27,518 bases of DNA, taken from positions 1 to 27,518 of the IMG/VR virus record IMGVR_UViG_3300033571_021692. One strand, written 5' to 3'. Source of the DNA: a virus. A program made the position numbers and the translations under genes. This document shows, one piece after another, positions 7,130-25,721 of the stretch. Each line of letters opens with the position of its first letter. The stretch's first letter is position 1. Below the pieces are notes generated by a model. That model was not told the origin of the DNA. It did not search any database and saw only the letters and a program-made list of their open reading frames with translations.

Positions 7130-7226
7130 GCAAGCTTGGATACGTGGCGGAGTCCTATCCGTCATCGTCTACCCTGACCGTAAGGTCGTAAAAGTCTATC
7201 CTAATGGTGAACCGTTCGATGCCTGA
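7026..7226 (+). CDS. Small hypothetical protein between portal and protease-capsid
   Basis: A 66-residue protein, not recognised. ATG 7026 has GGAGGAG about eight bases upstream, a strong site that supports translation although the first half of the gene overlaps the portal C-terminal tail in another frame. The second half (SVIVYPDRKVVKVYPNGEPFDA) reads like a short beta sheet. Its 3' end overlaps the start of the protease-capsid gene. Position suggests a head-associated or assembly accessory role; nothing in the sequence shows which. Confidence 0.6.
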   Translation: MSKETNPSQTWKPEGVTAAQVKTVESLLSPNQSVEQAWIRGGVLSVIVYPDRKVVKVYPNGEPFDA

Positions 7227-9507
7227 TGAAATAGAGCAGGTTCCCGAGGAAACGACTGTCACTCAAACCTCAGAGGAGACCGCTGGGAATCCTCTCTCAC
7301 TGTATGCACACATCACTGAAGAGGCTCCAGTCGGGACGACTTGGCAGGTTCGGATCATTCGAGCCGGCTGGTCCAATAATGGGATCTACTACAGCGCCAA
7401 GGCTCTACAGGAGGCTCTACCGCTATTTGATGGGGCTGCCGTCCAGCTTTACGACTTATCGCACCTGAAAAACCGCACACAAATAGAGAATCCAGCGGCT
7501 GCGAACGTGGGCTTTACCCACTCGCCAACGTGGGACGGCTCCTCTGTGATGGGGCTTTTTGAGTGCACCGATGCCAACTTGCAGAAATCACTGATGGCAA
7601 ACTACAAGGCCCGGAAGCGACTCCAGGAGAGCGGCAAGCTGCTGCCCTCGGTCCTCGGGCTATCGATCGACGCTCTCGCTCACACCGCTGCCGGCGTGGC
7701 CGAGGGACGAAAAGGGCTGCTCTGTGAGCAGCTGCTGCAGATTATGGAGACGACCGTCGTTTCCAACCCCGCTGCCGGTGGTGCCATTATGGCGCTGGTG
7801 GCGGGACTAGATGAGGAGGTGGAACCAATGCCAGAACAAGAAAAACAGGCTACGGCGGTCGCAGAGTCGTCACCAGTAGCAGATCAACAGCTCGGAGTGC
7901 TGTCCGAAATGCGTCTGGAGTTGTGCGCTGTAAAATTAGAGCGCCGGCTTTTAGAGGCTAAGCTACCCTACAAACTCAGCGCCCTGGTAAAAAGCCAGTT
8001 CAAGGGCAAGGTCTTTGAAGACCCTGAGATAGACGGCTTTATCACCCAGTGCCGTGAGGCTTTCGTGCAAGAAGCTGCCCCAACCGGAGTGGTTCAACGC
8101 CAACCGGACATCTCACTGGGTGCGGGCGACGTCGAAAAGCTTCAAGCGTCAATGGACTTGATGTTCAGATACAATCCCAACGCTGACAAAACTCGAAATT
8201 TGACGGAGGCCGAAAAGCAGCTCTACCGGGATGTCGCTGGTAGCCGTCTATCGCGGTCGATTGCGGCTTGCCGTGAACGCTGGTTCGACGACGAGAATCG
8301 GTTCGATCGAATCGGTCAGAACGCTCTGTGCCGAGTGGTTGAGGCTACAACTGCTGACTTTGCCCAGATTATGGGCAATAGTCTGAATCGCGCGACGATT
8401 CAGCAATACTCTGCGTATCCTGACAACTGGCGAGATCTGGTCGATATCAACCCGAACGTCAATGACTTCAAGACTCAGACCCGTATTTTGTCGGGTGGAT
8501 TCTCAAATCTACCTGCTGTTTCCGAGTCCGATACTACTGATACCTATCCAGAGCTTTCGACTCCGGGAGAATACTCCAGCACCTACGCAGTAGGTGGACG
8601 TGGCGGAAAGTTCACCATCACCAGGGCGATGGTGAAAAACGATGACATGTCATTCATCGCATCGATTCCGAGCCGAATTGCTCGTGGGTCAAATCACCAA
8701 TTGCGCAAGTTTGTCTATGGGCTCATCATCGCTGGAAACACTGGCTCTATCGGTGCTGATACCACCTACGACGGCTTAACTCTCTATCACGCCAGTCACG
8801 CAAACAGTTCGACTACGGCAATGAGTCAGGCAGCTATCAATGTCGCTCGGACGGCCATCAAAAATCAACGTGGTTTTGCTGGACTGTTCAACTTAGCCTC
8901 TGGAGCAGCGGCTAATGCCACCAGTTTGACTCTAAATAAAACTACTGGGATTGCTGCGGGCGACTATCTGCAAATTGATGCGGAGGTCTACCGCGTAACC
9001 TCAGTAGCTAGCGGAACTGTAGTTAACGTGTCTGCGGCCGCACTTGGCACCAGTTCGACGACTCACAGCACCGGCACCAAGAACGTGATCCAAATCAGCG
9101 AATCCATCCCACTGGGCCGCTTGCACGTCATTGCTCCGGACGAACTGGAGTCGACTTTGATTCCGATCCTGATGACTGAACAGGCTCTGGGCTCTAACAA
9201 TAACGACATCAACAACCTGAATATGGAAAATAGAGCTGGACGCTTGGTGCCTCACTTGGTCAATGCCCAGTATCTGCGTGATACCAACAACTGGTTTGTG
9301 GCCACCGAGGCAAAGGACTATGTCAACATCGAGATTGCCTTTATGGATGACATCCAGACTCCTCAAATCTATGTGCCTACTTACGGTATGGAGGGATTTG
9401 ACCCGAACCTCAGTCGCGACAACTACCGGTTTAAGTGTATGCACGAATACTCCGGCGCAGCGGTCGACTATCGCGGACTGTTCGCCGCTCTGGTAGCTGG
9501 CGGCTAG
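7219..9507 (+). CDS. Fused prohead protease, scaffold-like segment and major capsid protein
   Basis: One 762-residue polypeptide that seems to carry three head functions. Residues ~25-195 resemble a prohead serine protease: His candidates at 82 (DLSH) and 101 (FTHSP), LGLSID with Ser149, then IMETTVVSNPAAGG with E177, matching the E-x-S-x-V-x-x-PA pattern of HK97-type proteases. Residues ~200-290 are charged and helical like a scaffold (VKLERRLLEAKLPYKL). From ~295 onward it resembles Mu gpT-like major capsid proteins (NSLNRATIQQYSAYPDNW; GGKFTITRAMVKND). A beta module is inserted at ~560-620. ATG 7219 is preferred because GGTGA lies seven bases upstream; ATG 7204 is possible. No separate protease, scaffold or capsid gene is seen. 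Confidence 0.8.
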   Translation: MPDEIEQVPEETTVTQTSEETAGNPLSLYAHITEEAPVGTTWQVRIIRAGWSNNGIYYSAKALQEALPLFDGAAVQLYDLSHLKNRTQIENPAAANVGFTHSPTWDGSSVMGLFECTDANLQKSLMANYKARKRLQESGKLLPSVLGLSIDALAHTAAGVAEGRKGLLCEQLLQIMETTVVSNPAAGGAIMALVAGLDEEVEPMPEQEKQATAVAESSPVADQQLGVLSEMRLELCAVKLERRLLEAKLPYKLSALVKSQFKGKVFEDPEIDGFITQCREAFVQEAAPTGVVQRQPDISLGAGDVEKLQASMDLMFRYNPNADKTRNLTEAEKQLYRDVAGSRLSRSIAACRERWFDDENRFDRIGQNALCRVVEATTADFAQIMGNSLNRATIQQYSAYPDNWRDLVDINPNVNDFKTQTRILSGGFSNLPAVSESDTTDTYPELSTPGEYSSTYAVGGRGGKFTITRAMVKNDDMSFIASIPSRIARGSNHQLRKFVYGLIIAGNTGSIGADTTYDGLTLYHASHANSSTTAMSQAAINVARTAIKNQRGFAGLFNLASGAAANATSLTLNKTTGIAAGDYLQIDAEVYRVTSVASGTVVNVSAAALGTSSTTHSTGTKNVIQISESIPLGRLHVIAPDELESTLIPILMTEQALGSNNNDINNLNMENRAGRLVPHLVNAQYLRDTNNWFVATEAKDYVNIEIAFMDDIQTPQIYVPTYGMEGFDPNLSRDNYRFKCMHEYSGAAVDYRGLFAALVAGG

Positions 9508-10237: not shown

Positions 10238-10707
10238 GCGAATTCTTCGCCACCGTGCGGAAAATCGGGCCTATTTTTAGCGCCTCGCGTGAGGCTGTTG
10301 TCAAATTGCAGATGGCCAAGGGCGTTTCAGCGGCTGCCGAGAGATTTGCGTCCGAAGTCCGGCCGGTTACTCCCAGAGCTGGCGGCCGACTACAGAATTT
10401 CACTCAGGTAACCGGGATTGGGATTGGGAAAAAGGTGCAGTCGGGTGATTGGTATGCTATCCCTCTGGACCGAGGGGCGCAGGCCTCATTCGCTAAAATT
10501 GGGCCATTGGCTCAGTGGGCTGGCATGAAGTTGGGCCTTTCGGGCCTGGAAGCGCGGCGAGCCGCCTTCGCCATCAGCAAAAGTTTCTCTCGAGAGCCGC
10601 GCAAGGCTCTCAACTTCTTCTATGGGACGTTTGATCGTCTTGCCCCGATGCTTCAAAGCCAGTACTTGGCCCCGGTGGGGATTTACATTGTTAAGGAGCT
10701 TGGCTAG
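10234..10707 (+). CDS. Probable HK97 gp10-like head-tail joining or tail completion protein
   Basis: A 157-residue basic protein. The stretch AAERFASEVRPVTPRAGGRLQNF resembles the 'PvdTGrLr' signature of HK97 gp10-like neck proteins, in which helical and beta parts stack between connector and tail; the match is partial (RAGGRL in place of dTGrL). ATG 10234 overlaps the previous stop as ATGA and has GGAGGG about seven bases upstream, so the longer reading from 10147 is not needed. Its stop overlaps the next GTG. Position before the tail completion gene supports the call. Confidence 0.6.
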   Translation: MSEFFATVRKIGPIFSASREAVVKLQMAKGVSAAAERFASEVRPVTPRAGGRLQNFTQVTGIGIGKKVQSGDWYAIPLDRGAQASFAKIGPLAQWAGMKLGLSGLEARRAAFAISKSFSREPRKALNFFYGTFDRLAPMLQSQYLAPVGIYIVKELG

Positions 10708-11887: not shown

Positions 11888-13281
11888 TGCCAACTTTAGG
11901 CTATGGTGTAGGGGCGGCAGTAGGAACTGCCACCGAATCAGTCCCAGGAACGGGTGTTGCTCCAACCGTCTGGCATCAATTTGTCAGCGAGTCAATGAAA
12001 GCTGCGAAGCCTCTCATCAAACAGGGGTCGATCACTGGAGATCGCTCTGTTCTGCGCAGGATTCCAGGAATGCGCACTGCTGCGGGCGATTTGGAGCTGG
12101 AATTCGACGGCAACAGCTTCGGGCAATTCTTTCACTACCTTAACGGCAACCATTCAGGGGCTCTAAATAGCGCCAACGTCGGCGGCCTCATCACGGCTGC
12201 TCCAACCGCCACTCCAGCCTCAGGCGGAGCGATTCCTGTGGGGACCTATCGCTACACGATTGCTCCCATCTGGCTCTACACGTTAGGCGGAAAGCCTCAA
12301 GTCTGTCCTCAGTCTGCGGCAGCTACTGGCGTTGCAGTGACCTCTGGTAACCAAACGGTGGGACTGTCGTGGACCGCTCCTAGCAGTCCTCCAACCGGTT
12401 GGACCCACGCGGGGACGGCTGTATATCGCACAGATGGAGCGGCCGGAACCGAGCTTCTGGTTGGAGTTGTTACTGGGTCAGGCACGACCTACACCGATAC
12501 TGCCGCCACCGTAGACGCTGGGAACTTCTGCCCTGTTGGCTCAGCGGCATCAACTCCGAGAATCCACACCTTCACAAAGGCCTTCGTGATTGGCTCCGAT
12601 CCTTTGCAGCCGTTCTCATTGACTGTTGGTAAAAACAACGACGTCGCAGAACGCTTCTTGCTCTGTAAGGCCAACACGTTGGAAGTATCGGTTGGCGAAG
12701 GCAATTCGTTGGTCAAGGTCAAGGTCGGGATTATGGCCAGGGACTTCGAGGAAGTGGCCAACCCAACTCCCTCAATCACCAACTTGGCTAAGGCAGCCAG
12801 CTGGCAGACTCTGATCGGCATCAACGGCACCTATCAGCAGATTGTTGAGAAGGTAACCCTGAACCTGATGAACGCCTGCGAGATGATTCCTGGTTTATCC
12901 GGAGAGGATAGAATGCGTGAGGTGGGCTACGGAGAACGGGAGGTCAAGGCCACGCTGGATCGCCAGTTCGAGAACCACGAATATTGGCGCTATATGCGTG
13001 ACGGAGGATCTTTCTCGCTGCAGATGACAATCCAAGGTGATGCCCTTGGTGCGATCGTCGCTGGCGGAAACCCGCGATTCACGTTCAGCGGTCAGCAGGT
13101 CCGGCCGCTCTGCTACTTGGCAATCTTTGATTTGCCTATGTGCCGTGTGGCTGATGCTGGGGCCAACGCTAGCGGTCCTGGCCGGATGGTCGAGAAGATC
13201 GCGGTTGAGACCGAGGTTGACCCAACTACTGGGACTGAACTGAAAGTTCGTCTCATCAACCTGACGAACACCTACAGCTAA
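11887..13281 (+). CDS. Major tail tube protein with inserted fibronectin-like domain
   Basis: Forms the hollow tail tube. The 464-residue protein begins with the GYGVGAAVGTATE-type N-terminus and has beta-rich tube-fold segments at both ends: GDLELEFDGNSFGQFF at ~67-82, then TFTKAFVIGSDPLQPFSLTVG at ~228-248 and LTNLTNTYS-like C-terminus. Residues ~104-212 form a separate beta module (AIPVGTYRYTIAPIW, VGLSWTAPSSPPTGWTHAGTAVYRT, YTDTAA) with a fibronectin type III-like pattern, probably displayed on the tube surface. GGAGGTGAGG precedes the ATG. It lies next to the tape measure gene, which supports the call. Confidence 0.8.
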   Translation: MPTLGYGVGAAVGTATESVPGTGVAPTVWHQFVSESMKAAKPLIKQGSITGDRSVLRRIPGMRTAAGDLELEFDGNSFGQFFHYLNGNHSGALNSANVGGLITAAPTATPASGGAIPVGTYRYTIAPIWLYTLGGKPQVCPQSAAATGVAVTSGNQTVGLSWTAPSSPPTGWTHAGTAVYRTDGAAGTELLVGVVTGSGTTYTDTAATVDAGNFCPVGSAASTPRIHTFTKAFVIGSDPLQPFSLTVGKNNDVAERFLLCKANTLEVSVGEGNSLVKVKVGIMARDFEEVANPTPSITNLAKAASWQTLIGINGTYQQIVEKVTLNLMNACEMIPGLSGEDRMREVGYGEREVKATLDRQFENHEYWRYMRDGGSFSLQMTIQGDALGAIVAGGNPRFTFSGQQVRPLCYLAIFDLPMCRVADAGANASGPGRMVEKIAVETEVDPTTGTELKVRLINLTNTYS

Positions 13282-16200
13282 TGGCTCGCAACCGGCTAGA
13301 GATTGAAGTCGCTGGAGATGTCCGCCAGCTGAACAAGGATTTCCAGCAGGTTGATCGTGTCGTGGACAGCACGATGGGCAACATCCGCACCAAGGCCGGG
13401 CAGGTTTCGGTGGCGCTGGCCTCTATGGCAGGGGCTGGTGCCGGCCTGGCGGGGATGATGGTCGCCAAAGCCGGCGAGATGCAAAAGTATGAGGTGATGC
13501 TCTCGGCAATGATGGGCAGCACCAAGGCTGCCCACGCAGAGCTGCAGCGGCTTACTGCTTTTGCTGCCTCAACCCCGTTCGAGCTGCCTGGAGTCGTCGA
13601 GGCCTCGATTCGTATGCGAGGCCTCGGCGTCGACGTGGAGCGCTTCCTGCCTCAGGCTGGTTCTCTGACGACGGTGCTGGGAACCGACTTGCCTCAAGCG
13701 GCCAAAGGCTATGCCCAGGCACTGAAGGGCGTTCCTGAGGGACTTGAGATGCTACGCAATGCGGGCATCACGCAAGAGAAGTTGGTCGCAGCCGGCGCGG
13801 CAATGAACAAGGGCCAGTTGTCGACCGTGGCCGCCGATCTGCCTAAGCTCCAAGCTGCGATCGAGAAGGTTGTCAAATCCTCGTTTGGCGATCAGATGGC
13901 TGCCCAGAGCAAAACTTTTGTCGGCGCCGTATCCAATCTCAAAGACTCGGTCGGTCAGGGATTTGCCGAGCTGGGCAACGAGATGCTGCCTATGGCCGAG
14001 ACTGGGGTGAGGGCTCTCACCTCGCTGACTGACTCGATGCGGAATATGAGCCCTGCCACCAAAGGGATGGCAGCAGACACTTTGCTTGCTGTGACTGCTG
14101 CCGCTGGATTGGCTAGCATTGGGATGGGGCTCGTGGCCGTCATTGGGCCTCTGGCTCTCGCGATGCGAGCCTACAACGCGGTAGCGGCACAAAATGCAGC
14201 GGTCAATCTGGCGAGTGCAAACACTGCTGCTCTGTCGGCTGCCGCCAAATTCACAGAGGCATCAGCCGCTCAAGCGCAAGCAGTGGCTAACGTCGAAGCA
14301 GCCGTGGCTTTGCAAGCTGAAGCTATCGCTGAGACCGAAGCGGCGGCAGCGGCGGAACTCCTGGCAGTGGCTCAGGGTGAAGCGGCTGTTGCGTCTCAAG
14401 CTCTCGCTGTGGCGGCTGGAGAGACTGCAGCCGCCAGTGGTGCTCTCGCAGTTGCAGAGGGTGGAGCTGCGGCAGCTGCTGGAGGAATGGGGGCTGGTGC
14501 GTTGGCTTCTGCCGCAGCCCTCGGCCCATTGGTCGTGGTCATCCTGGCTGTAGCTGGGGCCGTGGGATATCTCATCAGCCGATACAGCGAAGAGACCAAA
14601 GCTCAGGCTGAAGTCATCGATATGCAGACTAAGGCGATCCAGAAGTTCCACGAGTATCGTGGGGCACTGATCGCGGTCAATACAGCCCTCAAGGACAACA
14701 AGTCGGTCAAAGAAGCCGCCGCCGATGTGAAGGCAGCCGGCTACGACGACGTAGCGATTCACGCTGCCATTGCAGCCAAGCTTGTCGAGCAAATGGAGGC
14801 TGAAAAGCAGGGCGACAAGGTCAGCGTTGAGCGCATCGAGCGACAGCTGGTAATGCTTCGTGGCGTCCAGACCGAGCTAGCCGGGACCAGATTTGAGCAC
14901 GACCGAGTTGCGGCCGCAGCGAAGGCAGCAGCGGAAGCCCAGGAAGCGGCCGCGCGTAAGGCTCTTGAAGGCTTCAAAAAGAATCAGAGCGCTGGAACCT
15001 TTGTAAACCCTAAGGATGAGCTTTCTGCACTTGACTCAGTGATGTCTGCCCTGAAAGCCACCTCCAAGGAGTATGAAGAACTCCAATTGGAGCGAGTCAA
15101 GCTGGCCCGCAATGTAGCCGAGGCCGAGCGCAAAGAACGTCTGGCAGTAGCACAGTTTGAGTTTGATATGCTGGGAGCCAAGCGGGAAGTCGACAAAAAC
15201 GCCCAACTTAAGATCCTGAAGGATGTCCTGGATGGTTACCAGCTGACCACCGAAGAAAGACGTCGATATACGCTAGACGCTGCCAAGCTTGAACTCGACA
15301 TCGCAAACGACGTTGCTGCAAAGAAGAAAAAGTTACACGAAGAAGCCGTCAAACAAGCCCAGATTGAAGCTGACTCCAGGATTAAGGCGCAGGAGGCTGC
15401 GCAGAAGACAAGCGAGCTGGATATCAAGGAGCTGGAAGACCGACTCAAGCTTGGTCAGGACGTGATCGCTCAGCTTGGCCAGGAGATCGCGGAACGAACT
15501 AAGCTGGCCGCCGAGATCATCAAAGAGAAAGCCGCAAAGGAAGCTATTGACAAAAGCCCTTCAGAAGCGGCCGAAATCAGGAAGACGGCAGAGGTTGAGG
15601 CTCAAAACGCCATCCGTCAGGGTCGCGAACAAGTCCAGAAGATGGAACGCGATCACACTGAAAAGCGTGTAAAGGATGAGGCGGCCTATGCCGAGGTGGC
15701 TGCCAAGTTCGGGCGAGCTCAAGAAGATTCTCTCCAGAAAAAGTTTGAGCTGTCTGGCAAAGGCGAGTTTGAGCTGAAACAGGCAATGGAGCAGAGGCAA
15801 AAGGCCGAGGAAAACGGCTTCCGCCAAAAGGCTGCTCTCGATGCTATGAACAAAGATGCGGCCGAGTCCAAACGCATTGAGAAACAACTCGAACTCGACC
15901 TGCTCTTGCTAGCAGAGCGCCAGACCAACGAACGCGCCACCCTCAATCAGAAGATTGATGAGACTAAGGCCAAGCTCGACGCGCTGAAGAAATCGCAAAG
16001 CCCACTTGATCTTTCAGGTGGAGCCAAAGGCGTCGCCGATGCTTTTTCTTCAGTGAACGATAGCTTCAAAAAGGGAGCAATCTACTCGGCCGATACCCCT
16101 CAATCTAAGGCCGATCAGGCTAAGATTGATGCTGCTAAAAAGACTCTAGACGGCTTGAACAAGGCCGCTCCCAAGGACGCGAATCCAGCCGCCCCTGCTA

Positions 16201-16385
16201 ACTCAATCTTTGTCCCAGGTGGGGCTGAATCAGTTACTGCCCTTCCCGTGCTTGAACGCATCCTGGCATCGCTGGAGCGTATGGAACGGGCTCCCGTAAA
16301 AGTTCAGGTTTCAAATGGGACAAACGCTAGCAACGACAGCGCCTTCCAACTGCATCGAGCGCCAGGCCTAGGAGAGAAGAAGTGA
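13281..16385 (+). CDS. Tape measure protein
   Basis: Sets tail length and is ejected with DNA. The 1034-residue protein opens with the family's typical phrases: EIEVAGDVRQLNKDFQQVDR, SVALASMAGAGAGLAGMM, YEVMLSAMMGSTKAAHAELQ and AASTPFELPGVVEASIRMRGLG. A hydrophobic segment lies at ~270-300. An Ala-rich helical stretch with a loose 14-residue period lies at ~327-400, then a membrane-like segment (ALASAAALGPLVVVILAVAGAVGYLI). Long charged coiled coils fill ~470-1000. The start shares a base with the tail tube stop and lacks a good ribosome site, so it is probably translated by coupling. No tail assembly chaperone gene precedes it. Confidence 0.95.
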   Translation: MARNRLEIEVAGDVRQLNKDFQQVDRVVDSTMGNIRTKAGQVSVALASMAGAGAGLAGMMVAKAGEMQKYEVMLSAMMGSTKAAHAELQRLTAFAASTPFELPGVVEASIRMRGLGVDVERFLPQAGSLTTVLGTDLPQAAKGYAQALKGVPEGLEMLRNAGITQEKLVAAGAAMNKGQLSTVAADLPKLQAAIEKVVKSSFGDQMAAQSKTFVGAVSNLKDSVGQGFAELGNEMLPMAETGVRALTSLTDSMRNMSPATKGMAADTLLAVTAAAGLASIGMGLVAVIGPLALAMRAYNAVAAQNAAVNLASANTAALSAAAKFTEASAAQAQAVANVEAAVALQAEAIAETEAAAAAELLAVAQGEAAVASQALAVAAGETAAASGALAVAEGGAAAAAGGMGAGALASAAALGPLVVVILAVAGAVGYLISRYSEETKAQAEVIDMQTKAIQKFHEYRGALIAVNTALKDNKSVKEAAADVKAAGYDDVAIHAAIAAKLVEQMEAEKQGDKVSVERIERQLVMLRGVQTELAGTRFEHDRVAAAAKAAAEAQEAAARKALEGFKKNQSAGTFVNPKDELSALDSVMSALKATSKEYEELQLERVKLARNVAEAERKERLAVAQFEFDMLGAKREVDKNAQLKILKDVLDGYQLTTEERRRYTLDAAKLELDIANDVAAKKKKLHEEAVKQAQIEADSRIKAQEAAQKTSELDIKELEDRLKLGQDVIAQLGQEIAERTKLAAEIIKEKAAKEAIDKSPSEAAEIRKTAEVEAQNAIRQGREQVQKMERDHTEKRVKDEAAYAEVAAKFGRAQEDSLQKKFELSGKGEFELKQAMEQRQKAEENGFRQKAALDAMNKDAAESKRIEKQLELDLLLLAERQTNERATLNQKIDETKAKLDALKKSQSPLDLSGGAKGVADAFSSVNDSFKKGAIYSADTPQSKADQAKIDAAKKTLDGLNKAAPKDANPAAPANSIFVPGGAESVTALPVLERILASLERMERAPVKVQVSNGTNASNDSAFQLHRAPGLGEKK

Positions 16386-17167
16386 GCTTGAATTTCAATG
16401 AGGTTAAGGCCTATCAGGCCGATGTAATGCCATCCGGGCTGACTACGACTGGAGTGGGCGGAGCGATCACGGCCTACGAGATCACAAATGGCACGCCTGG
16501 CGAGGTGCTGCCGTCGCTGGCTAGCTCATTGAGCGGCGGCGGCGACAAGCAAATCTGCGCTAAGTGGTTCTTTAAGAATGAATCAGCAAGCGACGACCTG
16601 CCCAGCGCAAAGTTCTTCTGCGAAAACTTGATGGACCCGGGGCCCACTGGAAACCACAACGTCACCATTAGACCAAGCGGCTCTGGGGATGACTCCACTA
16701 GGGTGGCCAAGGTGATCGGATTCGACTCGAGCGGGGCTCAACTTGTCGAATCTGTTCCGCTGAATGGAGATGCTGATGTGTCGACGGTCGCGACGTTCTC
16801 GGAAGTGGTCTGTGTCGAATCCCGGCTCGCGAGTGGGGCTCTGGTGCGAAGCGCCTCAGCTTGGACCATCAAAAAGGACACGACAGTGGTGGCCACTCCT
16901 CCAGCTGGCAGCTATGGAGCCACCTCGGAAGTCGAATTCTGGCTGGAAACGACCCTAAACGGTTCAACGACTATTTCCTTGGCCACTGACACCCCCTCAG
17001 GTTCAACTTTCAGCCGCCCCAAGACCTATGCCAGTGGGCTAGCGGTGGCCACAGGGACTCTGACCCACGGCGACTCGCAGGCTATCTGGGAGAAGTGGGT
17101 CAACCCGGAGCGCCGGGCAACTAGCCCAGACTTCGAGTTGTTGACCTGTCTGCAGGGTGACATCTAG
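16382..17167 (+). CDS. Putative minor tail / tail tip protein
   Basis: A 261-residue beta-rich protein just after the tape measure, the usual place for distal tail proteins. Start is GTG 16382, overlapping the tape measure TGA as GTGA, with GGAG nearby. Residues ~50-80 (GGGDKQICAKWFFKNESAS) and the repeated Thr/Ser/Gly strands suggest a beta-sandwich. No catalytic motif is seen. Stop shares a base with the next GTG. Tail location is well supported by context; exact role is not. Confidence 0.55.
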   Translation: MSLNFNEVKAYQADVMPSGLTTTGVGGAITAYEITNGTPGEVLPSLASSLSGGGDKQICAKWFFKNESASDDLPSAKFFCENLMDPGPTGNHNVTIRPSGSGDDSTRVAKVIGFDSSGAQLVESVPLNGDADVSTVATFSEVVCVESRLASGALVRSASAWTIKKDTTVVATPPAGSYGATSEVEFWLETTLNGSTTISLATDTPSGSTFSRPKTYASGLAVATGTLTHGDSQAIWEKWVNPERRATSPDFELLTCLQGDI

Positions 17168-18837
17168 TGGCAGTCCTCAAGGTCGACCGCCCTCACCGGT
17201 TCGCCGCTCTTGAGCAAAAGAAGTTCAGCCGGCCACACCGCTTCTCGACCTCTCAGTTCCAGTTTCGCAGGGCTCACAGATTTGAAACTACGTGCCAGAA
17301 AAAGTTCAGCCGGCCACACAGATTTGTTGCAATGCCGGTCGAGGTTGATGCGAGCGCCTACGGCTTTACCCAACCGGTTGGGGAGCACGACTTAGCTTGG
17401 AAGTATGGGATTGGATCGCTGCAGGTGGAGCTAAGCTGCCAAGGTAACGACCTGAATGGTATCCCGGCTTCCTTGCAGGTGACTCACGCAGAGTCGGCAG
17501 CAATCCAGTGGAGCTGCCCGATCAACGACCCAACTGGCTACTATCACCCAAAGCGTTCTGGGCCTTGGTTTGGGGTGCTAGACAATAAAGCGTTTGATTC
17601 TTCTGACAATATCGTCAAGACGCTGGAGGCCAAGATTACTTGGGGCGGGTATCCCTATCACTTAACCGGAGTTCCGACGAAGTACGGGCACAGCCGCAAC
17701 GGAAGCCCAAAATTTTCCTCCACCTGGTCAGGCATCGACAGCTCTATCAAGCTTTTTCGCAAAGCCCAAACCTTGGAGACAGTTCGTTCAAAACGCGGCG
17801 CCGTAGTCACCAACAAGCAGGCCTTGGCCTCAATATTTGAGGCTTACGGAATACGCTATGATGTTTCGGGCCTAAAAGAGATTCCAATCAACTGGCAGCA
17901 TCGACAGGACAATATGCCAGGCAACTGGATGCAAACGTTGCTGGACGCCACAATGGCCGCCTGGTGTGTGGAGGGAGACACTCTCCGTTGCTATCAGCCA
18001 GCTGTGTCGGGCCCAATCAAATGGGAATACGGAGCTGATGCCTACATCCCCGAAGACCAGCTGGACGCGAATGTTGACCAGATCTGCAATCACGTTGTCG
18101 TTCGTCGAGCTGCCGAAGCTTCAACAGCTCCTCCACAGGGCGACGGCGACAACGCTATCAAGATGTATGCCTTTGGCAACTCTTACAGTCAGAGCTTCTC
18201 TCCTCCGCTGAATGGCATCCGATGGGAAGTGACGGGAGATGGCGTTGCCTCGGACTTCATCTGCAAGAACAAGGACGGCATCCCGTTTGCAGTGATTGGC
18301 CCTAGGATTGGTGGAAACGTCGCTTATCCTAGTTTCCTGGTAAATGCTGGCGGCGCCGTAGTCAACGGTATCGCCTCCATCAGTTGGACTTGGGGGGCTG
18401 CAAACGCCCTCGTGCCCAATACGGTGACCGGTGCCCCTGGCTCAATCACGTTCTTCGGCAACACTGGCCACAACGTGGCGGACCTGGTGACTGAAGAATA
18501 TGACGAAGTCTATACCGTCGAGGCGATGGACTCCGTGTCTATCGCTGAGTATGGGTTGTGGAAGACTGAGATGAGGCCCAACCCTCTGTTTATGCGGTCT
18601 CAGGACGCCCAGTGGTTTGCCGATGAGTATGTGCGCCGCAAAGCGTGGGACTCCGACCCCCAAAACTTCAAGGTAAACCTCAACCTAGCCCTGCGAGTCG
18701 GTGATCGAGTGCGGATTGTCGATCCGCTCCTTGGGTCCGAAGAGCGCTATGTCAATCAGTTGAACCACAGCATTATCGACGACCCAGCCCAACGATTCAC
18801 CCGATTTCGAACGATACTGTATGGATGGAGGCCGTGA
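17167..18837 (+). CDS. Baseplate hub / tail tip protein with N-terminal RPHRF repeats
   Basis: A 556-residue protein starting at GTG 17167. The first 55 residues carry four copies of an R-(P/A)-H-R-F motif. From residue ~60 it resembles tail hub proteins of the gp27/Tal N-terminal type: strand-rich segments (LQVELSCQGNDL, AIQWSCPINDPTGYY, AKITWGGYPYHLTGVPTKYGHS), then SIFEAYGI, PGNWMQTLLDATMAAWCVEGDTLRCY and DQICNHVVVRRA, all typical of this fold. The C-terminal part (RKAWDSDPQNFKVNLNLALRVGDRVRIVDP) is the closing beta-barrel often found in such hubs. ATG 17332 after the repeats is possible but lacks a ribosome site. It would form the tail tip ring around which the spike and fibres attach. 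Confidence 0.65.
   Translation: MAVLKVDRPHRFAALEQKKFSRPHRFSTSQFQFRRAHRFETTCQKKFSRPHRFVAMPVEVDASAYGFTQPVGEHDLAWKYGIGSLQVELSCQGNDLNGIPASLQVTHAESAAIQWSCPINDPTGYYHPKRSGPWFGVLDNKAFDSSDNIVKTLEAKITWGGYPYHLTGVPTKYGHSRNGSPKFSSTWSGIDSSIKLFRKAQTLETVRSKRGAVVTNKQALASIFEAYGIRYDVSGLKEIPINWQHRQDNMPGNWMQTLLDATMAAWCVEGDTLRCYQPAVSGPIKWEYGADAYIPEDQLDANVDQICNHVVVRRAAEASTAPPQGDGDNAIKMYAFGNSYSQSFSPPLNGIRWEVTGDGVASDFICKNKDGIPFAVIGPRIGGNVAYPSFLVNAGGAVVNGIASISWTWGAANALVPNTVTGAPGSITFFGNTGHNVADLVTEEYDEVYTVEAMDSVSIAEYGLWKTEMRPNPLFMRSQDAQWFADEYVRRKAWDSDPQNFKVNLNLALRVGDRVRIVDPLLGSEERYVNQLNHSIIDDPAQRFTRFRTILYGWRP
17188..17325 (+). repeat. Four coding repeats of the peptide R-P/A-H-R-F
   Basis: RPHRF or RAHRF is encoded at 17188-17202, 17230-17244, 17269-17283 and 17311-17325, residues 8, 22, 35 and 49, spaced 14, 13 and 14 residues. 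Copies 2 and 4 share KKFSRPHRF but use different codons (AAG/AAA, CGC/AGA, TTC/TTT), which favours selection at the protein level over recent DNA duplication. Confidence 0.85.
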
Positions 18838-19067
18838 TGGATTTTGAATCTGAGTATTCCAGGACGACCAAATTTGAGGCTGCCGTGGTCCAGAGCAGCT
18901 ATTTCGGGCAGCAGTATGACGTGCAGTCTGGGAATCGCGGGCACGCACGCACCGAAGCTGGTCGTGTAGCTGGGCCCAAATATCGCGTTGGTGACAACAT
19001 CATCTTGTTCGCCAGCTCCGAACACGATCAGCCGATCATCGTTGGCGGGAGTCCCTACCTGACGTGA
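18837..19067 (+). CDS. Small OB-fold-like baseplate protein
   Basis: A 76-residue protein starting at ATG 18837, which overlaps the hub gene stop; GGAGG is five bases upstream, so it is preferred to ATG 18825. The C-terminal half (YRVGDNIILFASSEHDQPIIVGGSPYLT) has the Gly-Asp turn and the (D)xPIIVGGSP ending common in OB-fold domains of tail spike and hub proteins. It precedes a gene whose N-terminus has a similar segment. A small adaptor at the tail tip is likely; no enzymatic motif. Confidence 0.5.
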   Translation: MDFESEYSRTTKFEAAVVQSSYFGQQYDVQSGNRGHARTEAGRVAGPKYRVGDNIILFASSEHDQPIIVGGSPYLT

Positions 19068-21759: not shown

Positions 21760-22116
21760 ATGGCGAAACAAGTAGTTGGCGCAACTCCAACCGTTGATAT
21801 TGCCGTTAAGCGCGGATTTGACGAAGTAATCGAGTTCCGCTTTGCCTACGCCACAGACTACAACTGGACGGGATGCACCGCACAATTTGAGGCCCGCAAA
21901 TACGCAGGACAGCCAGCCGTGCTCTCCCTCACGTGCAACGTGGTGCAGTTCGACTCCAAGACGGCGCAGATGGTTTTCCCTGTGCCAGCTGCTTCCACAG
22001 TGGATGCTGCATTTGGAGCCTATCAGTTCGACTGCCAGCTGACCTTCGTGTCTGGAGCCTTGGAGCCGGTAGTTAGCGGCAGGCTATTTGTAGAGGATAG
22101 GGTGATACGCACGTGA
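21760..22116 (+). CDS. Putative tail fibre anchor / fibre-associated protein
   Basis: A 118-residue beta-rich protein. AGGAGG is seven to eight bases before ATG 21760, so the longer frame from 21679 is not used. The layout, an N-terminal strand pair (VDIAVKRGFDEVIEFRFAYA), a WTGCTAQFEARKYAG segment, then GAYQFDCQLTFVSG and a closing VVSGRLFVEDRVIRT, resembles small Ig-like fibre anchors such as the BppU N-terminal type. It overlaps the fibre gene start as GTGA. Likely a connector between tail tip and fibre; assigned by pattern and neighbour. Confidence 0.55.
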   Translation: MAKQVVGATPTVDIAVKRGFDEVIEFRFAYATDYNWTGCTAQFEARKYAGQPAVLSLTCNVVQFDSKTAQMVFPVPAASTVDAAFGAYQFDCQLTFVSGALEPVVSGRLFVEDRVIRT

Positions 22117-25100
22117 GAGCAGAGGTTGCAGTCATAGACTCAGGACGGACCGTTTCTGTTGTAGACGGCATCATTTCGGTCGTTTCAATTGGGATCCCCG
22201 GTCCTGCTGGACCAGCGGGGCCCGCCGTCACCGATGTTGACTCAATTGACAAAGGATTCCTGACTCCTGAATTTGGAGGGTCCAACACGCTAGGCGGTGC
22301 CACCACTCGGCAGATTCAGTCAATCCGCACGGCGACCGACTACTACTACTCTCTAGCCTGGCACCCAAACGGGCGCTACTTCTACACAGGGACGGAGCCT
22401 CTCGGAGGCGAGACGGGCACGGGAGCTATTTCCTGCTACGCTGTGTCAAAGCGCGGAATGATTTCCAGAAAGTCTTTTGTTGCAGTTGCTGGAATCTTAG
22501 GAATTCAAAGTATTGTCATCACCCGAGATGGCAAATTCCTGTTCGCGTATGATTGGAATAATAGTCAGATTAGGCGCTACTCAATAGCGACCGGTGGAGC
22601 ATTGACGCTTATTGGACTGACCGCGCCCTCACCTACCCCAACCATTCTGCAGGGGTATCAACGTTCGATGGTGCTGGACGACAACTCAAAGACACTCCGC
22701 TTAGCTACTGATACCGGTCTTTACTCCTGGGCAGTAGACAGCGCAGGCGGACTGGCTGCATTGCCAACAATGGCGGGCGCTTTCAGGTCTGTATGCTCAG
22801 ACGTGGACAGCCAGAGAGTTTGGGCACTATCAACCGCTGATACCAAGATTTACAGTTACTTGATAGCAACAGACGGCAGCCTGACAGCCGAATACAACGT
22901 AACCCTGCCACAAACCGGAAGCGGATCCTTGGGCGGTCTTTTTGCTTCACCAAACGGGGCGAACTTAATCGCTTTGATTGGCTCGTCTAGTCGCCCAATT
23001 CAGTATTCAGTATCTGCGGACGGGACTTTGTCTCTAGTTCGAAGGCTGGAAATCTCTGATGGCTATTTTTCCTGGGTATCCTTTTCTAGAAATTCGGATC
23101 TATTTTGGATGTCAGACCCTGGATATGGTTTCTGCATTGCATGCTCTATGCTGGCAGAGGAGCCATTCAGAATTGAAACTTCACTCACTATTGCGGGATA
23201 CTCCCGCACGCTAGCTGTATCGCCAGATGGGCAAACCTTAATTGTCAACGGGGCTACATCTGGAGTGCCACACATCTACGTTTGCCGGATCAATCAGGCC
23301 CGGACCGGCAACCTGGCAAAACTGAGTGAGCGCATAACAGTTGGCCCGGTCATCACCAATGGTGTGCCATCGTCGCTGTCTGACCAGGCTATCGGGGGTA
23401 ACTCCTGGCAGTGCATCACGCACCCCACCCAGCCGTGGCTATACGTCACAGGAGCAACTACGGGGCTCGTCAGTCAATACAGCTACGTAGCTGGAACCGG
23501 TGTCATCACTTCGCTAGGAGCCGCGCTAGTCACTACTAACTGCAAAGGCGGAGCAGTTTCGCCTGATGGCAAATGGCTCTATGTCGCCGACCGTGCGGCA
23601 TCGGGGAATGGCACAATCCGGCAATACTCAATCAATCAATCTACCGGAGTCCTGACGGAGATTGGAACTCCAATTCCTGCAGGCGTTCCATGTCATCAAG
23701 TGACTATTCACCCATCCGGAAAATGGCTCTACTCCTGCGGACAGACTGATAACCTGATTTACCAGTATGCCATAGATCAAGAAACCGGACTTCTGACCGC
23801 GTTACCAACGCCAACTATTGCCGCCACTAACGCCGGACCGTTCACAATGGCTTGCACTCCAGATGGGTCAACGATCTACGTATCCTGCATTGCTACACTG
23901 AATTATGTCTATCAGTATGCCGTAGACCAAACAACTGGGCAACTTTCATCATCTTATATGTATCAATTTGTCCCTATTGCTGGAGCGGCTGGGCAAGAAA
24001 CTGACATTCAAGTCCATCCAAGTGGCAAATGGTTGCTATCTTGCGGCCAAGGCACTGTTCGTTATGTTTCTGTCTGGCGTCTATCTACCGGTGAATCGCT
24101 TTACCGGGCAGGTAACCCGATTCCACATTCTCGCCTGGGTCTAAACAGCTTCCCTGATCAAGTCACATCGATTGCAATTCACCCCAATGGTGTAGATGTT
24201 TATCTTGTTGCAGTTCCTGCGAGTGTGATTCATTGCAAATTTGATTCAGAGGGGAACTTATCAGTAATTGGCAGGATGAATTTTCCTGTGACCGGTTACC
24301 CTGCAAGTTCTGGCGGTGGTAGACTGGCGTTTAACCCTCTGGGAACCGTAGCGTTCAGCGCGAGCCAAAACTTCACTTCAATCGCTAGGTTATCAATCGC
24401 CCAAGGAACCCAATCCAGTGTGCAGGCTTTGACCACGCACAAAACACACACAAGCCAGCAATCTAGCTCTTTTGACACTATCAGCTATGACTGGGAGTTC
24501 GCGGGAATTCGCGGAGCGAGACTGCGAGCAAACACTGACGGCGGTGGAAACTCTTTCGGTCCGGTTTATTTCGAGCTTTCAAACGGTGGCGGGATGATCG
24601 CGAGAAACCAGGTCGCTGACATTCCTGCGGCACCTGCGGCCAACTATGTTGGTTTTGGTTGCGCCCCGACGTCTGGCCAAAGCCTGGCGACCAACTGCAA
24701 CTCTCGTGCTTGCTACTCCGGCGGGATGCCTCACCCGACCATCAACACTTACGGAGCGAGCTTTCGGCCTTGTGGCACCGCAGACCCGACCAACGCCGGA
24801 GCTTCGTTCAACGACATCGGCGTCTGCCCAGCGACGACAGTCAACGGAGCGGTCAAGGACAGCACTTGGTATCTACGCTACAACGGAAGTGTCTACGCGT
24901 ATTTTGCCACGGCAGACAGTATCAGTTCACTCTATAAAAACGCCAACGGTGCACCCGGTTTCTACCTGAACCAACCGCTGAACTGCCTCAACATCTACCC
25001 AGCTCACGCCTCCTCTGCGCTCAATTTTCGCGGCGCCGACAACGTAATCAAGGCTACCTTGGCCAATGCTGGGTTCAACATTCTGGTTGGTTCTTGGTCA

Positions 25101-25721
25101 GCTTCAGCCATTGGGGCAACATACGGAGGCACAGGCCAGACGGTCTACGCCGTTGGCGATCTGCTGTATGCCAACACAACCACCAACCTAACAAAACTGG
25201 CCGGAAATACTACAACCAACAAGCGCTATCTTAGCCAAGCCGGAAATGGAACCACAGCTGGGGCCCCAGGCTGGGCAGATATTTCTGCTGCCGACATCAC
25301 GCTAGGTCAGCTTGCGCCAATTCGAGGGGGGACTGGAATCGCAACCAACGCGAGCACCGGAGTTCCTAGCATAGCTGCTGGTGTTTGGTCCGTATTGACT
25401 CGACTTACAGCCGCCCTGGGGGGAACTGGGATTGACACAAGCGCCAGCACTGGCGTTCCTAGCATTGCTGCAGGGGTCTGGTCAGTCCTGACTCGACTCA
25501 CGGCAGCACTAGGAGGAACCGGAATAGACACTAGCGCTAGCACCGGTGTTCCTCGCGTGGCAGCTGGGGTTTGGTCGGTTGGCAACCTGGTAGCTCCGAC
25601 TGCCCCCCCAGCGACTAGCACTTCAGCAGGTGTAGCCGGGACAATAACTTGGGACGCAAACTGGCTCTATGTCTGCATAGCCACCAACAGCTGGAAGCGC
25701 ATTGCGCTTACCTCATTCTAG
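22113..25721 (+). CDS. Large tail fibre protein with 14 beta-propeller blade motifs
   Basis: A 1202-residue protein starting at GTG 22113. Residues 27-38 are a short collagen-like run (GIPGPAGPAGPA). Residues ~75-760 hold 14 copies of a YVTN/lactonase-type blade motif, hxhxPxGxxhY (LAWHPNGRYFYTG, LAVSPDGQTLIVNG, GAVSPDGKWLYVAD, VTIHPSGKWLYSCG, IAIHPNGVDVYLVA and others), enough for two seven-bladed propellers. A Cys-rich unknown beta segment follows (~830-980), then fibre-type GGTGQTVYAVGDLLYAN, a 31-residue tandem repeat (1072-1157) and a C-terminal cap (GTITWDANWLYVCIATNSWKR) common at fibre ends. Such propellers can bind glycans or proteins; a host-recognition role is inferred. No lactonase catalytic set is claimed. 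Confidence 0.8.
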   Translation: MRAEVAVIDSGRTVSVVDGIISVVSIGIPGPAGPAGPAVTDVDSIDKGFLTPEFGGSNTLGGATTRQIQSIRTATDYYYSLAWHPNGRYFYTGTEPLGGETGTGAISCYAVSKRGMISRKSFVAVAGILGIQSIVITRDGKFLFAYDWNNSQIRRYSIATGGALTLIGLTAPSPTPTILQGYQRSMVLDDNSKTLRLATDTGLYSWAVDSAGGLAALPTMAGAFRSVCSDVDSQRVWALSTADTKIYSYLIATDGSLTAEYNVTLPQTGSGSLGGLFASPNGANLIALIGSSSRPIQYSVSADGTLSLVRRLEISDGYFSWVSFSRNSDLFWMSDPGYGFCIACSMLAEEPFRIETSLTIAGYSRTLAVSPDGQTLIVNGATSGVPHIYVCRINQARTGNLAKLSERITVGPVITNGVPSSLSDQAIGGNSWQCITHPTQPWLYVTGATTGLVSQYSYVAGTGVITSLGAALVTTNCKGGAVSPDGKWLYVADRAASGNGTIRQYSINQSTGVLTEIGTPIPAGVPCHQVTIHPSGKWLYSCGQTDNLIYQYAIDQETGLLTALPTPTIAATNAGPFTMACTPDGSTIYVSCIATLNYVYQYAVDQTTGQLSSSYMYQFVPIAGAAGQETDIQVHPSGKWLLSCGQGTVRYVSVWRLSTGESLYRAGNPIPHSRLGLNSFPDQVTSIAIHPNGVDVYLVAVPASVIHCKFDSEGNLSVIGRMNFPVTGYPASSGGGRLAFNPLGTVAFSASQNFTSIARLSIAQGTQSSVQALTTHKTHTSQQSSSFDTISYDWEFAGIRGARLRANTDGGGNSFGPVYFELSNGGGMIARNQVADIPAAPAANYVGFGCAPTSGQSLATNCNSRACYSGGMPHPTINTYGASFRPCGTADPTNAGASFNDIGVCPATTVNGAVKDSTWYLRYNGSVYAYFATADSISSLYKNANGAPGFYLNQPLNCLNIYPAHASSALNFRGADNVIKATLANAGFNILVGSWSASAIGATYGGTGQTVYAVGDLLYANTTTNLTKLAGNTTTNKRYLSQAGNGTTAGAPGWADISAADITLGQLAPIRGGTGIATNASTGVPSIAAGVWSVLTRLTAALGGTGIDTSASTGVPSIAAGVWSVLTRLTAALGGTGIDTSASTGVPRVAAGVWSVGNLVAPTAPPATSTSAGVAGTITWDANWLYVCIATNSWKRIALTSF
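25326..25583 (+). repeat. 93-bp tandem coding repeat (31 residues, 2.8 copies)
   Basis: Copies at 25326-25418, 25419-25511 and 25512-25583 (partial) encode GGTGI(A/D)T(N/S)ASTGVP then SIAAGVWSVLTRLTAAL. In the 17 identical residues of copies 1 and 2, 12 codons differ synonymously by my count; copies 2 and 3 differ at 8 of 14 identical residues. The unit looks like a tail-fibre shaft repeat. Confidence 0.9.

Follow-up and report, generated by a model that had tools for sequence, protein, structure and literature searches.

The window analysed here is the whole 27,518-base record of a virus of bacteria, and its tail genes follow the order tube, tape measure, a 261-aa protein, a 556-aa protein, an 80-aa protein with an OB-like sequence pattern, proteins of 893 and 120 aa, and a 1202-aa protein with beta-propeller matches (Table 1). 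The 556-aa reading frame begins with MAVLKVDRPHRFAALEQKKFSRPHRFSTSQFQFRRAHRFETTCQKKFSRPHRFVAMPVEVD, and within this N-terminus the motif R-(P/A)-H-R-F is found four times, at spacings of 14, 13, and 14 residues. Four copies between 17188 and 17325, recurring every 13-14 residues within the first 55, had been noticed in a sequence-only reading of this DNA; a pattern scan confirmed both the number and the period, the first copy starting and the last one ending exactly at those positions. No further R[PA]HRF or [RK]xH[RK]F was present elsewhere in the six frames of the window.

Table 1. Features of the tail region around the RPHRF array, with the basis of each assignment.
Feature	Positions	Strand	Basis
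Tail tube protein, 464 aa	11887-13281		Pfam Phage_tube_2, E 5e-22
Tail tape measure protein, alternative arm partner	13281-16385	+	Tape measure families of PHROGs (E 2.3e-10 at best)
261-aa acidic protein, distal-tail position, candidate arm partner	16382-17167	+	Net charge -12; directly 3' of tape measure gene
Putative tail hub, a 556-aa protein with an orphan sequence	17167-18837	+	Gene order
Basic N-terminal arm of putative tail hub, residues 1-55, before Met56	17167-17331	+	Junction, GC, charge
27-residue unit copy 1, residues 4-30	17176-17256	+	Shares 14 of 27 residues with copy 2
Motif copy 1, RPHRF, residues 8-12	17188-17202	+	Pattern scan
Motif copy 2, RPHRF, residues 22-26, inside KKFSRPHRF	17230-17244	+	Pattern scan
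27-residue unit copy 2, residues 31-57	17257-17337	+	14/27 residues identical to copy 1
Motif copy 3, RAHRF, residues 35-39	17269-17283	+	Pattern scan
Motif copy 4, RPHRF, residues 49-53, inside KKFSRPHRF	17311-17325	+	Pattern scan
80-aa protein, OB-fold-like	18825-19067	+	VGDNIILF...QPIIVGG read by eye

The array is better described as a 27-residue unit present twice, each with two motifs and a QKK between them. The two units read LKVDRPHRFAALEQKKFSRPHRFSTSQ and FQFRRAHRFETTCQKKFSRPHRFVAMP, and half of the residues that they share (7/14) are encoded by the same codon. The string KKFSRPHRF is identical around motif copies 2 and 4 (nt 17218-17244 and 17299-17325) and falls inside a 29-nt DNA repeat with a spacing of 81 nt and 86% identity, while the codons of the motif itself differ from copy to copy (CGCCCTCACCGGTTC, CGGCCACACCGCTTC, AGGGCTCACAGATTT, and CGGCCACACAGATTT). 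Even two motifs did not arise in any of 200,000 shuffles of the first 60 residues. The first 70 residues scored 51 for internal repeats, where shuffled versions averaged 16 and reached 35 at most; the other proteins of the window scored 22 or less. Tandem Repeats Finder, at a score of 30 or more, did not list the array.

The sequence-only reading had called the 556-aa product a tail hub protein. The position of the gene fits this name; none of the profiles and models that we consulted identifies a hub. The protein belongs to no family of Pfam, PHROGs, or NCBIfam, and nothing relevant was found in the PDB; its best weak PHROGs match was phrog_1887 'tail protein' (E 0.17), which a search of the record did not confirm, and PF14594 was not found in the record by a search whose controls were also silent. 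AlphaFold2 run on the single sequence without an alignment gave a mean pLDDT of 30 and 33. Matches to a zinc finger (WT1, E 6) and to Tachykinin (E 0.42) were discarded as chance. The 80-aa protein had no significant profile match and the 261-aa protein had no relatives in the phage records searched; the OB and distal-tail identities of these neighbours are putative. Read by eye, residues 150-300 and 480-556 of the 556-aa protein seem to follow a hub-like pattern of barrels and helices, which suggests two barrels around a helical part. From gene order and these patterns, it is plausible that the protein is the tail-tip hub. The proteins that occupy the same place in the gene order, namely gpL and gpJ of lambda, pb3 of T5, gp53 of JBD30, the hub and megatron of R4C and RcGTA, and gp27 of T4, may share the pattern of two barrels and a helical part that was read by eye, but no sequence relation to any of them was detectable, and the 556-aa protein is an orphan variant of a putative tail-tip protein.

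We then looked at the phages that share the head module. The portal and a protease-capsid fusion of this phage have counterparts, about 27% identical, in the Microcystis phage Mae-JY22, and the portal gene led to 37 IMG/VR records; related portals and fusions are also carried by the records G007, G010, and G014. The tails of these relatives are of other kinds. By eye, the gene order of G010 is Mu-like and its tail looks contractile. In JY22, G007, and G014 the tape measure gene is followed by a distal-tail-like protein and then by the hub, as here, but the hub belongs to a different family and has no arm. When the portal-linked phages were extended as possible sources of hub relatives, they yielded only other hub families lacking the arm; hubs of the JY22 and G010 types aligned to the 556-aa protein with an hhalign probability under 1% and carry no RPHRF array. 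Between the distal-tail-like and hub genes of G007 (L058 18402-18544) lies an array of 14-nt tandem repeats whose halves are roughly inverted copies of one another. As a parallel to the RPHRF array it was rejected, being a DNA repeat that is not codon-phased.

Relatives of the 556-aa protein were not found by tblastn in phage records, IMG/VR, or genome contigs, nor in 1,962 sampled bacterial genomes from five phyla (386, 387, 398, 396, and 395), these empty searches being mainly sensitive to close relatives, such that distant ones could escape. Three weak tblastn hits were set aside as chance, since they contain stop codons. The pattern RPHRF-x(8,9)-RPHRF, which the sequence-only reading had proposed to look for next to hub genes, gave no match in a tail gene in phage, IMG/VR, or genome sequences: in IMG/VR there was no pair at spacing x9 and a single chance match at x8, antisense to a terminase gene, and the 24 stretches matched in genomes were short or of low complexity. 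R[PA]xRF occurring three times was not found in IMG/VR, the phage records held nothing of the RPHRF type, and no other tail protein with such repeats was found. The literature searched contained only unrelated strings for RPHRF and no report of N-terminal repeats in a hub. The statement that no hub family is known with this stretch agrees with Pfam, PHROGs, and NCBIfam, which hold nothing like it. The recurrence expected of a conserved hub family with an RPHRF arm was thus not observed, and the arm may be private to one genome.

The GTG start at 17167 shares one nucleotide with the stop of the preceding gene (TAGTG) and is preceded by a weak Shine-Dalgarno sequence, aGGGTGa. Overlaps of 1 nt occur likewise at 10707, 11887, and 13281; among the remaining neighbours between 9551 and 22113, an overlap of 4 nt is the most usual arrangement, found in the majority. 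GC content by codon position is 0.56/0.45/0.65 in the arm vs 0.56/0.45/0.63 in the remainder of the gene, and the motif spacings of 42, 39, and 42 nt are whole codons. The coding score of the arm frame (0.018) is above that of out-of-frame windows (mean -0.49, 95th percentile -0.16) and is the highest on its own strand, although it is low for this genome, under the 5th percentile of in-frame windows (0.126), and is equalled by one antisense frame. The latter corresponds to a 74-aa ORF (17164-17388, minus strand) that nothing else marks as a gene.

One could instead suppose that 17167-17331 is untranslated, the hub beginning at Met56 (17332) and the repeat being an intergenic DNA or RNA element. 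The ATG of Met56 does stand directly 3' of the array, and the equivalent junction of G007 contains an intergenic repeat; the low codon score also points this way, and the openness of the frame is weak evidence when taken alone because 9% of out-of-frame windows have equally long stop-free stretches of 55 codons. However, no Shine-Dalgarno sequence precedes Met56, and a start there would create a gap of 164 nt, which would be odd among clustered genes that for the most part overlap by 1-4 nt. The codon-phased spacings and the mainly synonymous change also argue against an untranslated element, as does the RNA fold of the arm, which is not unusually stable (z = +0.64); Rfam gave no match. We consider the untranslated alternative improbable. 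The arm is very probably translated, its reading frame and start are well supported, and a start at Met56 only is unlikely given the gene junctions.

The claim that the peptide is kept despite synonymous codon differences could be examined on the four copies of the 15-nt motif core. On the best tree they require at least nine base changes, among which only the P to A change of copy 3 is non-synonymous, and the motif peptide therefore looks kept, as had been claimed. Under a neutral simulation of nine changes, 5.2 residue changes were obtained on average, and at most one in 0.15% of runs (P ~0.0015). This value becomes P ~0.01 when roughly corrected for the choice among some nine possible five-codon cores, the core having been picked after seeing the data. 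We regard this as moderate evidence, from one genome, for selection on the motif peptide. On the other hand, the array may be the relic of local duplication, a unit of 13-14 codons duplicated first and the 27-codon unit afterwards, which lengthened a tolerant N-terminal linker and left the motif with no specific partner. The copies are still alike as DNA (the 29-nt repeat), such arrays can come and go, no relative is known to retain this one, and the same phage carries another repeat array, a 93-bp tandem repeat near the end of its fibre-like gene (25325-25576). The G007 repeat at the same gene junction suggests, since it is not codon-phased, that repeats can arise there with no coding meaning. 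Against a mere relic stands the pattern of change itself: the core has changed at third positions and by swaps of arginine codons between the CGN and AGR sets, with hardly any effect on its peptide, whereas the linkers between the motifs have diverged. We find the relic explanation doubtful, though it retains an appreciable share of probability.

Our preferred reading, held tentatively and at somewhat below an even chance, is that the N-terminus is a basic arm with repeated docking motifs for a neighbouring tail ring, the 261-aa protein being the putative partner. The description of the stretch as basic holds: the first 60 residues have a net charge of +10. Residues 1 to about 55 would form a translated, probably flexible arm leading into the first domain of a hub trimer, and each motif would be a short linear docking peptide, its Arg and His supplying charge and its Phe an anchor. 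A Phe beside Arg and His at regular distances in a basic stretch is as expected of such a peptide, and docking is a plausible interpretation of the sequence. The motifs would dock on the neighbouring distal-tail ring, for which the acidic 261-aa protein is the best candidate; from gene position and charge, the arm perhaps binds to it. We further suggest a stoichiometry in which two units on each of three subunits give six sites, such that three arms would offer six equivalent contacts where a threefold hub meets a sixfold ring.

Known tail tips have a threefold hub beneath a sixfold ring, according to three structural reports (PMC10721106, PMC11445458, PMC10276861). In that of lambda, the last tail ring is built of three HDI domains of gpL and three HDII domains of gpJ, and its stacking on the gpM ring is electrostatic (PMC10721106); in those of JBD30 (PMC11445458) and R4C (PMC10276861), distal-tail parts mediate the mismatch between sixfold and threefold symmetry. 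A repeat arm, unlike in the 556-aa protein, is not mentioned for the lambda, JBD30, or R4C hub in the parts of these reports considered. The closest likeness to the proposed arm is found in the stopper proteins, gpFII of lambda and that of R4C, whose long N-terminal extension grips the neighbouring ring (PMC10276861); however, these extensions act at the head end, are partly helical, and are not described, in the portion of that source considered, as repeated short peptides. That arms of tandem peptides with six docking sites bridge a threefold hub and a sixfold ring, an arrangement for which no description was found, seems to us quite unlikely in this full form. Docking of the proposed kind would couple tail rings of different symmetry in a simple, modular manner, through a short peptide that could be tested in isolation. 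The orphan tail-tip variant is of interest because its motif peptide appears to be under selection, and no sequence relatives of the tail module were found in IMG/VR, the phage records, or the bacterial genomes sampled; as a single case from one genome, the finding is limited and its weight moderate.

Two other roles for the arm were considered. It could sit in the lumen of the tail tip and bind the C-terminus of the tape measure protein or DNA, as its charge would allow. The tape measure proteins of JBD30 and lambda have a C-terminal coiled coil in this lumen (PMC11445458, PMC10721106). The last 60 residues of the tape measure protein here have a net charge of +1, and that end is less favoured as a partner because it is not acidic. 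DNA normally stays short of the tip before ejection, and the sequence evidence picks neither partner; binding in the lumen is unlikely in our judgement. The arm could also be a propeptide or chaperone-binding leader that is removed ahead of tail assembly or in its course, by cleavage at the QKK sites for instance. It is basic, probably flexible, and N-terminal, its QKK strings recur between the motifs of each unit, and the capsid protein of this phage is made as a fusion with a prohead protease. Nevertheless, prohead proteases work in heads rather than in tails, and no example of a hub with such a leader was found in the literature searched, such that we give cleavage hardly any probability.

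Three other proteins of the record deserve a comment. The fusion of prohead protease with major capsid protein (7204-9507; NF045541, E 8e-39) has at residues ~566-626 a stretch that looks like an inserted domain, since it matches other virion proteins (phrog_4406 and phrog_2885) and is largely absent from the Mae-JY22 homologue. In the tube protein, the Pfam model of 266 positions was matched over residues 9-406; as the protein is much longer than the model, an inserted domain at residues ~105-215 is suggested by eye. The 1202-aa protein (22113-25721) has beta-propeller matches (Lactonase, E 2e-23, and WD40) and probably serves as a tail fibre or in receptor binding.
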